Shown: positions 22,136 to 25,761 of the stretch, in pieces
Layout of the letters: every line of letters starts with the position of its first letter
Numbering within the stretch: position 1 is the stretch's first letter
Origin: Bacillus sp. EAC
Lineage (GTDB): Bacteria > Bacillota > Bacilli > Bacillales > Bacillaceae_G
Direction: 5' to 3'
Assembly: GCF_002156875.1 (NCBI RefSeq)
Contig: NZ_NCSY01000005.1
Span: 1-64,000, forward strand
Length of the DNA stretch: 64,000 bases
Translations under genes and position numbers: made by a program
The notes under the pieces: generated by a model
Databases searched by the model: none
Told to the model about the DNA's origin: nothing
What the model saw: the letters and a program-made list of their open reading frames with translations, nothing else

Positions 22136-22415
22136 TATATCTCACTCCTTTTTATTTTTATACCTAATACCTTAAAACAGATTATCTTTTTTGTAAAAGA
22201 AAACAAATTCAAACTTTCAATAAATGCACATTATTTTAACGTTATTTCATATAAAATTCATCATTTATATAAACCTTATTCGGACACACTTTTTTCATCT
22301 TGGATACTAGTTTAAATACTCCTGTATATAATTATTTGAGAAAAAAAGTGAGGAGATTATGCATAACTTTAATGAATCGGCTATAATTATCGTTAATAAA
22401 TGACTAAAATTTTTT
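22136..22415. other. Intergenic region between divergent anmK and the leader peptide
   Basis: No gene is seen here. A TATAAT at 22382-22387 (plus strand) could be the -10 box for the leader peptide transcript, but its -35 is poor. No cre match is evident for anmK. A 5-codon frame ATG...TAG at 22400-22417 ends in the leader binding site and lacks its own. Confidence 0.4.
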
Positions 22416-22430
22416 AGGAGGTGATATGAT

Positions 22431-22523
22431 ATGACAAGTGCAGTTAATTTGTCAGATAAATCATCAGCTCATGCAAAGCCTAGTATTAGAAAGGCGATAC
22501 TTTGCATGGGAGTGACTTTTTAA
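22431..22523 (+). CDS. Candidate 30-residue leader peptide
   Basis: This short frame encodes 30 residues (start MTSAVNLSDK, end LCMGVTF). It is preceded by AGGAGGTGAT at 22416-22425, the full complement of the 16S rRNA 3' end, and ends 78 bp before the next gene. Such a strong site on so small a frame, together with the alternative stems that begin inside it, suggests a regulatory leader peptide more than a functional protein. I do not recognise the peptide. Inference: ribosome stalling in it controls the downstream gene. Confidence 0.6.
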   Translation: MTSAVNLSDKSSAHAKPSIRKAILCMGVTF

Positions 22524-22595
22524 ATAATCGCCCAAGTAAGTTTTTCTAATCCATTGGCTTTGCACCTTATTTTATAAATTAAGAATAAGGAGCTG
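22465..22595 (+). promoter_or_regulatory. Candidate attenuator: mutually exclusive stems between leader and SD
   Basis: Segment 1 (22465-22480, CAGCTCATGCAAAGCC) can pair with CTTTGCATG at 22500-22508 (9 bp, CATGCAAAG). Alternatively it can pair with GGCTTTGCA at 22556-22564 (9 bp) plus GAGCTG at 22590-22595 (6 bp); the last covers the Shine-Dalgarno of the next gene. A further pair, GGCGAT (22493-22498) with ATCGCC (22527-22532), fits only the second fold. The two folds exclude each other, as in Erm-type translational attenuators. Pairing was read by eye; energies were not computed. Confidence 0.55.
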
Positions 22596-22601
22596 GCAGA
22601 A

Positions 22602-22868
22602 ATGGCATATGTAAAAGCAACGGCTATATTACCAGAAAAACTAATAGTTGAAATTCAAAAATATATTCAAGGAGAAACAATCTATATTCCTAAACTTGAA
22701 AAAACTCATCAGAAATGGGGCTCACGTTCTGGAACACGAAAGCTAATTGATGATAGAAACAAATCAATTAAAACTTCATTTAAGAATGGAATAACAATTG
22801 ACCAATTAGCCAATGATTATTATCTCTCCGTTGAAACAATTAAAAAAATTATTTACACCACTAAATAA
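22602..22868 (+). CDS. CD3324-family small protein (putative DNA-binding)
   Basis: An 88-residue protein resembling the CD3324 family known from clostridia and bacilli: an N-terminal LPEKLIVEIQKYIQGETIYIP segment, a central KWGSRSGTRKLIDDRN block and a C-terminal helix-turn-helix-like part (ITIDQLANDYYLSVETIKKII), as in Mor-type activators. It is probably a small DNA-binding protein; no function is established to my knowledge. AAGGAG lies 9 nt before the ATG and is part of the alternative pairing described for 22465-22595. It has its own terminator. Confidence 0.75.
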   Translation: MAYVKATAILPEKLIVEIQKYIQGETIYIPKLEKTHQKWGSRSGTRKLIDDRNKSIKTSFKNGITIDQLANDYYLSVETIKKIIYTTK

Positions 22869-22877
22869 CATAAAAAT

Positions 22878-22910
22878 AAGCACTGATAAACTTTGATCAG
22901 TGCTTTTTGT
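22878..22910 (+). terminator. Terminator after the CD3324-family gene
   Basis: AAGCACTGAT (22878-22887) pairs with ATCAGTGCTT (22896-22905), followed by TTTGTT. Confidence 0.88.
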
Positions 22911-23016
22911 TATGGCGAGTTTGTTTCTTAATCATTTAGACCATTTTAAAAACTTCACAACTCAAGTAAATTAAATGCTATGAGGGACTAATAAATTGCC
23001 ATAAGGAGTGAATAAA

Positions 23017-23661
23017 ATGGAACCCTTTATAAGAAGTGATCAATATAATTTTATTAAATATCAAATCCAAATACTAATTAATGGATATACATCTGTAAAC
23101 GATAAAGCCGTTCTTAATGCATTAAAATCTCTCGTTAGTGAGAGAGTGTTTAGCTTATTTCCTGATTTAACAGAAGTTCAGCAACAGTTACTAAATCCCA
23201 TTAATGATATAAAAAATTCAGATCGTGCAGAAAAAGTCTTAGATCAACTACAACCATTTGTCCTTCCATTTAAAGAAGTCTCAGAACAATCAATTAAAAA
23301 ATTATTTCCTAAAGCTAAAAAGCTAAAACTCCCAATATCAAAGGATATAAAACTAACGGAAATGACATATCTAGGGTGGGATGATTTAGGCTCTAATTCT
23401 AAATTTATCGTTACTTATTTCAACGGAAAACTGATTGGTTTACAAGGAACTTTTAAGCCACTGAATAAAAAAGGAAATTGTACTATTTGTAATAAGTTTG
23501 AAGATTTAGGGATGTTTATGACTAAAACGAAAGGAAAATTAGAAGGCACTTTTATTCAAAGAGGCAATTACATATGCCTAGACAGCCAAAAGTGTAATCA
23601 AAATATTACTACTTTAAATAAACTGAATGATTTTATTATGTTGATAAAAGAGGATAAGTAG
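23017..23661 (+). CDS. FusB/FusC-family EF-G-binding protein
   Basis: A 214-residue two-domain protein: an N-terminal helical bundle and a C-terminal zinc-binding domain with Cys155, Cys158, Cys187 and Cys193 (TICNK and ICLDSQKCN motifs). The pattern and the GWDDLGSN block match staphylococcal FusB, which binds elongation factor G, helps release stalled EF-G from ribosomes and gives fusidic acid resistance. Chromosomal relatives occur in many Firmicutes. The ATG at 23017 follows AAGGAG by 8 nt; an in-frame GTG at 23008 overlaps that site. It stands alone after the CD3324 gene terminator. Resistance itself is inference. Confidence 0.87.
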   Translation: MEPFIRSDQYNFIKYQIQILINGYTSVNDKAVLNALKSLVSERVFSLFPDLTEVQQQLLNPINDIKNSDRAEKVLDQLQPFVLPFKEVSEQSIKKLFPKAKKLKLPISKDIKLTEMTYLGWDDLGSNSKFIVTYFNGKLIGLQGTFKPLNKKGNCTICNKFEDLGMFMTKTKGKLEGTFIQRGNYICLDSQKCNQNITTLNKLNDFIMLIKEDK

Positions 23662-24806: not shown

Positions 24807-24846
24807 ATTAGCAATCTAAAATTTCTGAAAATTGAAGGTGACGATT

Positions 24847-25761
24847 ATGAATTATATTGAAAAAATACGTAAATTTAACAGATACTATGCAAATATATTA
24901 GGTAAGATTGACCAGGAAATTTATAATCAACCTTTTCCATTAACTGAAGCACGCATCATCACTGAACTTAACTACAACACTGGCTGCACTGCTTCAGAAA
25001 TTAGTGAAAAGCTAGGAGTTGATCGTGGTTATTTAAGTCGTATTATTCAACGATTTGAAGAGGAAAATATCATCGCTAAAAGACAGTCCACGATTGATAA
25101 ACGTCAGTATTCTCTTTTTCTAACTGATACAGGGAAAGAAATTTACAAAAAACTAGCTGAAGATTCAAGTCGTGGCGTCGAGAAAATGATAGATAATTTA
25201 TCAATGACTGAACTATCTAAACTAGCTTCATCAATGGAATGTATAGAGAATACTTTCTCTCAACAACAATTTTCCAAACCAGACATTACTATCCGTCCAT
25301 TTCTACCAGGTGATGTGGGTTATATCGCATATATTCATGGTAAAATTTACAGTACGACATACCAATTTGGACGTATCTTTGAATATTATGTCATGAAAGG
25401 TTTAACAGAGTTTCTAATTAATAATGAGGGTGGCGAACTGTGGGTAGCTGAAATAAATGGAGAAATTGTCGGCTCAATTGCCATTACAAAATCTAGCGAC
25501 TCAATTGCACAGTTAAGATGGTTTATACTAGCTGAAAATTATCATGGAATGGGCATCGGTAAAAAACTAATCGAAACAGCACTCAACTTCTGTAAAGAAC
25601 AAAACTATCTACATATATTTTTATGGACAGTAAATGCTCTAGAATCAGCTCGCTATCTATATAAAAAGTATGGTTTCTCATTAACTGAAGAAAAACCTAA
25701 TTTTGAATGGACTGGCTCAAAGTTACTGGAAGAAAGATGGGATCTTGATTTATCTATTTAA
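24847..25761 (+). CDS. MarR-GNAT fusion: transcriptional regulator with N-acetyltransferase domain
   Basis: A 304-residue two-domain protein. Residues 1 to about 140 form a MarR winged helix (TASEISEKLGVDRGYLSRIIQRFE with the following beta wing). Residues about 150-300 form a GNAT domain with the acetyl-CoA loop NYHGMGIGKKLIE. Such fusions occur in many bacteria, but their acetyl acceptor is usually unknown. The ATG at 24847 follows AAGGTG by 6 nt; a TTG at 24832 overlaps it. A consensus promoter and a 25-bp palindrome directly upstream suggest autoregulation, perhaps relieved by the acetyltransferase substrate. Confidence 0.9.
   Translation: MNYIEKIRKFNRYYANILGKIDQEIYNQPFPLTEARIITELNYNTGCTASEISEKLGVDRGYLSRIIQRFEEENIIAKRQSTIDKRQYSLFLTDTGKEIYKKLAEDSSRGVEKMIDNLSMTELSKLASSMECIENTFSQQQFSKPDITIRPFLPGDVGYIAYIHGKIYSTTYQFGRIFEYYVMKGLTEFLINNEGGELWVAEINGEIVGSIAITKSSDSIAQLRWFILAENYHGMGIGKKLIETALNFCKEQNYLHIFLWTVNALESARYLYKKYGFSLTEEKPNFEWTGSKLLEERWDLDLSI

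Follow-up and report, generated by a model that had tools for sequence, protein, structure and literature searches.

The window, i.e. the whole stretch of 64,000 nt that was analysed (Bacillus sp. EAC, contig NZ_NCSY01000005.1, positions 1 to 64,000), carries a short leader ORF with its own Shine–Dalgarno sequence (SD) ahead of a CD3324-family gene. An intrinsic terminator, a conserved block and the gene of a FusB-family EF-G-binding protein follow on the same strand. The features and the arms of the leader RNA are listed in Table 1.

Table 1. Features of the leader element and the genes behind it (window positions).
Feature	Position	Strand	Sequence or remark
Leader SD	22416–22425	+	AGGAGGTGAT; complements the whole anti-SD; kept in homologues
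Leader ORF, 30 codons	22431–22523	+	ATG at 22431, TAA ends at 22523; peptide MTSAVNLSDKSSAHAKPSIRKAILCMGVTF
Codons 9–10 of leader ORF	22455–22460	+	predicted stall window; P-site 12–15 nt before CATGC, where SD opening is easiest
Arm 1, 5' end	22465–22470	+	CAGCTC; partner: bases after arm 2 (fold A) or GAGCTG 22590–22595 in the SD region (fold B)
Arm 1	22468–22480	+	CTCATGCAAAGCC; covariation, permutation tests
Fold-A helix 1:2	22470–22478 with 22500–22508	+	CATGCAAAG / CTTTGCATG
Fold-B helix 1:3	22472–22480 with 22556–22564	+	TGCAAAGCC / GGCTTTGCA
P2, 5' arm	22484–22492	+	TATTAGAAA; inner helix of fold B; partner about 22543–22550
P3, 5' arm	22493–22498	+	GGCGAT; 1 nt 5' of arm 2
Arm 2	22500–22510	+	CTTTGCATGGG; fold-A partner of arm 1
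P3, 3' arm	22527–22532	+	ATCGCC; covariation, permutation tests
Arm 3a	22556–22564	+	GGCTTTGCA; pairs with arm 1 in fold B, else extends the SD stem
Arm 3b	22565–22571	+	CCTTATT; anti-SD side of the SD stem
Arm 4	22584–22595	+	AATAAGGAGCTG; contains the SD of the CD3324 gene, AAGGAG 22587–22592
CD3324-family gene, 88 aa	22602–22868	+	matches NF040785 and PF08765; Mor-like HTH protein
Intrinsic terminator 3' of CD3324 gene	22878–22905	+	terminator scan
Conserved block	22917–22947	+	GAGTTTGTTTCTTAATCATTTAGACCATTTT; candidate CD3324 operator or upstream part of promoter
-10-like sequence	22967–22972	+	TAAATT; downstream of the conserved block
FusB-family EF-G-binding protein gene	23017–23661	+	PF07299 and PF16571 over cut-off

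The CD3324 protein matched its family model (CD3324_fam, 114.8 bits, E 1.4e-33), and its match to the Mor domain was just over the cut-off (26.0 bits with a cut-off of 24.9). Its predicted structure had a pLDDT of 83, and the HTH half aligned with phage Mu Mor and C. The comparison of the model with Mor (1rr7) gave a Z of 6.7 with 50 aligned positions and an rmsd of 2.7, a score with which other HTH proteins tied. The FusB protein was searched as 23038–23661, i.e. without the first seven codons. The N-terminal EF-G-binding domain (PF07299, E 5e-26) and the C-terminal zinc finger (PF16571, E 3e-6) were both found, and the FusB and FusC structures were hit with E 1e-34 and 4e-31, respectively. 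The protein scored below the NCBIfam cut-offs for the named staphylococcal determinants. Further downstream, 24832–25761 encodes a GNAT acetyltransferase domain fused to a MarR domain.

An earlier note on this DNA had proposed a leader-peptide attenuator with a masked SD and two competing folds. Direct reading of the sequence recovered every pairing it listed, the leader frame and the SD at the positions given. Arm 1 lies in the leader ORF and has two possible partners: arm 2, which gives fold A, and arm 3a, which gives fold B. The folding check of the leader region was run on 22410–22620 (211 nt). This RNA folded with −57.3 kcal/mol, compared with −43.5 ± 3.8 kcal/mol for shuffled sequences (z −3.67; 0 of 200 shuffles as stable). 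The minimum-energy structure combined fold B with an SD stem (CCTTATT/AATAAGG), which was absent from the earlier list. Single-sequence folding thus gave fold B, whereas RNAalifold on 48 diverse elements gave fold A, again with the SD stem.

The short frame, both folds and the SD stem recurred ahead of all 30 of the best CD3324 relatives. The element was also upstream of about 31 of 40 further CD3324 homologues, which were picked by protein similarity alone. CD3324 relatives were present in 72 of 199 genomes (protein search). A DNA pattern of the three exact arms matched at least 119 stretches in a collection of named genomes, including Bacillus, Peribacillus, Cytobacillus, Paenibacillus, Cohnella, Brevibacillus, Sporosarcina and one Clostridia bin. 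As these loci were selected for exact arms, the unbiased evidence comes from the similarity-picked homologues, the genome searches with a covariance model and 44 divergent hits of that model. The covariance model matched 96 of 299 genomes of the order and 85 of 348 of the class. The element was single in its own genome, where the next match (E 0.06, locus L199) reads as chance, and up to four copies were found in other genomes. In one genome (G125), element and CD3324 gene stand in tandem, 765 bp apart (L167 and L168), with compensatory arms GCAAAATC/GATTTTGC.

The viral contigs searched gave no match to the element, and the phage records contained no CD3324. No Rfam 15 family was over its gathering score, and the PADLOC search gave no match. 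The element was absent from the literature searched (subscription papers aside), and a literature search on CD3324 or yraL returned nothing relevant.

The sequences compared below are related, and the p values overstate their independence. The fold-B helices (1:3, P3, SD stem and the contact of arm 1 with the SD) contained 87.7% standard pairs, compared with 39–47% when slid. They included 12 doubly changed pairs, and their covariation score was reached by 0 of 500 shuffles. The fold-A helix was paired to 99.2%, and two of its pairs had changed on both sides. Native partners also paired better than permuted partners for 1:2 (z −4.3), 1:3 (z −2.9), P2 (z −6.2), GGCGAT/ATCGCC (z −6.8) and the SD stem (z −2.7). 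Among the 44 divergent model hits, 1:2 reached z −8.3, with exchanges of C-G and T-A at three positions and of T-A and C-G at a fourth; 1:3 reached z −2.8, with covariation at one position (C-G/T-G/T-A). Hence, the two mutually exclusive folds that share arm 1 are both evolutionarily conserved, and each is backed by compensatory changes. Together with the leader ORF and its own SD, the exclusive helices with one arm in the ORF and the conserved SD stem support the proposed attenuator.

Clostridial CD3324 leaders had the same architecture with different bases. The arms of locus L292 are CTCCATGCAGAGTC, CTGCATGGAG, TGCGAT/ATCGCA and GGCTCTGC, and those of L282 are AGCAAAGGCTAT/ATAGCCTTTGCT. Their leader peptides differ (MQQNEALLHAES and LIKMESVRYA, respectively). 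Other leader types were seen at four CD3324 loci (L284, L287, L291 and L293). Three divergent CD3324 paralogues (L185, L187 and L188) have very short leaders (MRKLILS, MRKLISN and MGKYLNIRIFSC) with a palindrome of the TAGCAAAG type and a distal GTCTTTGCT. CD3324 genes may generally be under attenuator control.

Two other pairings were tried and rejected. An erm-like 2:3b pairing that would free the SD (GGGGTGG after arm 2 with CACCTTAT) was no better in native than in permuted sequences (z +0.8). Pairing of the leader SD with arm 3b or with ATCGCC was worse than permuted (z +2.4 and +1.4, respectively).

The earlier note had assigned GGCGAT/ATCGCC (P3) to fold B only. This part did not hold, as P3 can join fold A as an H-type pseudoknot. 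Hairpin A holds the 5' arm of P3 in its loop, at a constant 1–2 nt from arm 2; 172 of the 178 scored elements have the commonest spacing. The other spacings vary: 4–14 nt between arm 1 and GGCGAT, and 8–66 nt between arm 2 and ATCGCC. The fixed spacing is unexplained by fold B and is expected from coaxial stacking, which points to a pseudoknot of fold A. Because spacing and covariation both suit such a pseudoknot, P3 is probably shared by fold A and fold B.

In the reading frame, arm 1 encodes HAKP in 159 of 191 elements, CKA in 31 and another peptide in one. The start codon lies 33–40 nt upstream of arm 1 in nearly all elements. Downstream of HAKP the peptide varies, and close relatives even change frame there. 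In several leaders the stop codon comes immediately behind arm 1; others extend beyond arm 2. As peptide and frame vary, arm 1 appears to be constrained mainly as RNA, and the role of the leader would be to bring ribosomes onto it. Codons 7, 8, 10, 12 and 13 of HAKP-class leaders were conserved at the second position and free at the third ([LM][PS]x[ST]x[AT][ST]). Over the codons before arm 1, frame 0 was stop-free and had the most conservative changes. These conserved codons adjoin the predicted stall, and the peptide possibly contributes to stalling there.

The accessibility of the SD was modelled with nearest-neighbour energies, leaving out pseudoknots and co-transcriptional kinetics. A simple equilibrium switch between folds A and B that exposes the SD was discarded, as the SD was closed in every modelled state. 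Of 39 diverse elements, 32 had the SD closed more tightly in fold A than in fold B; fold A frees arm 3a to extend the SD stem. At equilibrium, fold B also left the SD slightly less closed than masking of arm 1 did. In all eight relatives tested, opening was costlier in fold A (for L292, 10.3 vs 3.0 kcal/mol). In the window, the two folds were about equal for the SD alone.

A ribosome was then represented by a mask of 30 nt, with assumed footprint edges 14 nt upstream and 15 nt downstream of the P-site. For the 39 diverse elements, opening of the ribosome-binding site took 11.1 kcal/mol without a ribosome, 9.4–9.9 kcal/mol with the P-site 12–18 nt before arm 1, and 13.2–14.1 kcal/mol with the ribosome on arms 1 and 2. 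The effect of the mask was seen in 34–37 of the 39 elements (Wilcoxon p about 1e-9, for related sequences). At the favourable position, the probability of 1:2 was 0.01 and that of 1:3 was 0.93. The effect was complete in the clostridial L292, which opened at 0.3 with the favourable mask vs 9.6 free and about 11 kcal/mol with the ribosome on arm 1. For the SD alone in the window, the effect was small (5.1–6.4 vs 6.4–9.8) and varied with the flanks included. In every modelled state, the SD stem 3b:4 persisted (about 0.85); for most elements, that of the window among them, the model therefore predicts a modest gain.

As opening was easiest with a ribosome stalled just upstream of arm 1, the model favours a stall near codons 8–10 as the on state, with the 1:3 fold as the on-competent structure. 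The steps would be as follows. Arm 3 (3a and 3b) would close the SD in arm 4, and arm 1 would alternate between arm 2, in the P3-pseudoknotted fold A, and arm 3a, in fold B. A ribosome stalled at about codons 8–10 would cover no more of arm 1 than its 5' half (CUCAU), on which fold A and the contact of arm 1 with the SD depend. It would leave GCAAAGCC free to capture arm 3a, which would shorten the SD stem and allow translation. Fold A, or ribosomes running over arms 1 and 2, would leave arm 3a with the SD and keep the gene off. Induction by stalled ribosomes and the identity of the on state are inferred.

The earlier note had the opposite direction: fold B off, through pairing of the SD with the 5' end of arm 1, and fold A on, with a finishing ribosome leading to B and an early stall leading to A. 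The SD being easier to open in fold B in the model speaks against this. Moreover, leaders of the CKA and HAKPE classes stop right after arm 1, so that finishing cannot mask arm 2. On the other side, the complementarity between the 5' end of arm 1 and the SD beat permutation weakly (z −2.1, p 0.015), and divergent members pair CUCC with the GGAG of the SD in their best fold. Fold A also forms first in transcription, and the pseudoknot, absent from the model, may stabilise it. Because pseudoknots and folding kinetics lie outside the model, we keep the opposite direction as an alternative and regard it as rather unlikely.

Attenuation of transcription, with fold B as the terminator, is very improbable. 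A U-rich stretch (ACCUUAUUUU) does stand 3' of arm 3a. It starts with ACC, however, and is constrained as the anti-SD arm, with compensatory changes. The terminator scan detected no terminator-like site in the leader, yet found the one after the CD3324 gene.

The 191 distinct elements preceded CD3324 genes in 136 cases and, directly, FusB-family genes in 49. The latter support the link of the element to FusB and come from Paenibacillaceae and some Bacillaceae. The remaining six elements preceded PF00144 beta-lactamase-family genes (three, all in Paenibacillus: L066, L076 and L092, one of them plasmid-borne) and broken or fragmentary genes (three). A further element (L296) lies ahead of a SpoU-type RNA methylase gene. 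Of the 102 loci with enough flanking DNA, 82 have FusB as the next gene after CD3324, in the same orientation, and a Pseudalkalibacillus plasmid had the same order.

These targets also bear on a general sensor of ribosome flux or growth, in which the rate of leader translation (initiation, amino-acid supply) and not an antibiotic would set the fold. Such a sensor would fit the unconserved peptide after HAKP and the unconserved frame, and a codon for a common regulatory amino acid is not obvious. However, FusB-family, SpoU-type RNA methylase and beta-lactamase-family targets are all plausible for translation or drug stress, and codon-structured conservation stands beside the predicted stall. 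We consider the flux sensor improbable. The element probably switches genes on when an antibiotic or another stress stalls ribosomes.

The FusB gene had been described as lying next door. It does adjoin the CD3324 gene, but a terminator and a conserved promoter-like block stand between the two, which suggests that the Mor-like CD3324 controls FusB. Of 65 diverse loci, 62 carry the block (31 nt, consensus AAGTTTGTTTCTTAATCATTTTCTACATTTT) in the gap that separates the CD3324 terminator from the start of FusB, and a -10-like sequence comes about 18–20 nt after it. In the window, it scored 27.4; the next best site in the window scored 9.7, and shuffled controls reached 6.2 at 99%. The block was also present behind CD3324 genes with an a/b hydrolase next (L010, L037, L072, L094 and L118; score 26–30), ahead of another a/b hydrolase (L060, L090 and L115; score 21–22) and ahead of a GNAT gene (L141; score 28). 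It was absent at 50 directly attenuated FusB genes (score at most 7.3) and upstream of the CD3324 leaders, of which 135 were scored (at most 10.1). When its own genome was scanned for further sites, no excess emerged (6 vs 6 for the reversed pattern).

The simplest reading of these comparisons is that the block is a CD3324-dependent promoter. Its main alternative is that the block could be flanking DNA inherited by shared ancestry, with no CD3324 site in it. The promoter reading is in line with phage Mu Mor and C (PF08765), which the HTH domain of CD3324 resembles by Pfam match and, in a tie with other HTH proteins, by predicted fold; the block likewise stands just upstream of a -10 that lacks a clear -35. 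CD3324 differs from them in being cellular and 88 aa long, and only its C-terminal half aligned. Activation by CD3324 is putative; we infer it for the FusB gene from the Mor match, the terminator between the two genes and the distribution of the block. Separately, an inverted repeat (TTATGGC 22910–22916, GCCATAA 22998–23004) flanks the region ahead of the FusB SD (AAGGAG 23003–23008) and is possibly a second, independent control of FusB.

Among known systems, a published precedent is the fusB gene of Staphylococcus aureus plasmid pUB101, where stalling of ribosomes on the leader by fusidic acid induces expression (PMC12008383, PMC12493156). The regulation of FusB homologues was stated as unknown in a 2025 review (PMC12493156). 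Both loci have a leader ORF with a strong SD, alternative RNA pairings, control of an SD and a FusB-family gene. In contrast, the pUB101 leader peptide (MLKDITYLKLLDLEYKMLCS) and arms are unrelated in sequence, with no homology by direct reading (locus L190), the CD3324 gene is absent there, and we read that leader as a three-segment layout. Short SD-led leader ORFs with unrelated peptides were seen at FusB-family genes of S. aureus pUB101, Listeria, E. faecalis and E. raffinosus (L190, L191, L192, L196 and L197). As the fusB-like genes of Listeria and Enterococcus also have short leaders, leader control may be general for the FusB family.

The erm, cat and ABC-F attenuators (ErmC, Cat-86, VmlR and MsrD) are alike in that stalling on a leader switches an SD-masking fold. 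In the element described here, arms 2 and 3 compete for arm 1 and P3 probably pseudoknots fold A. Moreover, it mostly controls a regulator gene, and members of several gene families are under the same element.

In actinobacteria, whiB7 has a uORF attenuator and encodes a transcription activator; once ribosomes are inhibited, the activator turns on resistance genes. The likeness is one of logic only, a cascade from attenuator to activator, if real. WhiB7 is an Fe-S WhiB protein and CD3324 a Mor-like HTH protein, transcription is attenuated there and translation here, and the regulon appears to be local here.

Taken as a whole, we think it somewhat likelier than even that the locus is a translational attenuator that senses ribosome position and is on when a ribosome stalls at about codons 8–10. 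It would control the Mor-like activator CD3324 and, through it, probably the adjacent FusB-type gene; elsewhere, the same element would act directly on FusB. The wider picture, to which we give slightly less than even weight, is a widespread stress circuit of Bacillota with WhiB7-like logic. In it, a pseudoknotted attenuator would act on a Mor-like activator, and this on a neighbouring translation-protection or drug-modifying gene (FusB, a/b hydrolases, GNAT). In other lineages, the attenuator would act directly on FusB.

The element would offer a bistable RNA with a pseudoknot in which each of the two folds is backed by covariation. It makes the stall site of the ribosome, the drug sensed and a WhiB7-like activator circuit in Bacillota testable. 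If true, the reading would assign a function to CD3324, an uncharacterised family with one member in Bacillus subtilis, and it would account for the control of chromosomal FusB homologues across much of Bacillales.
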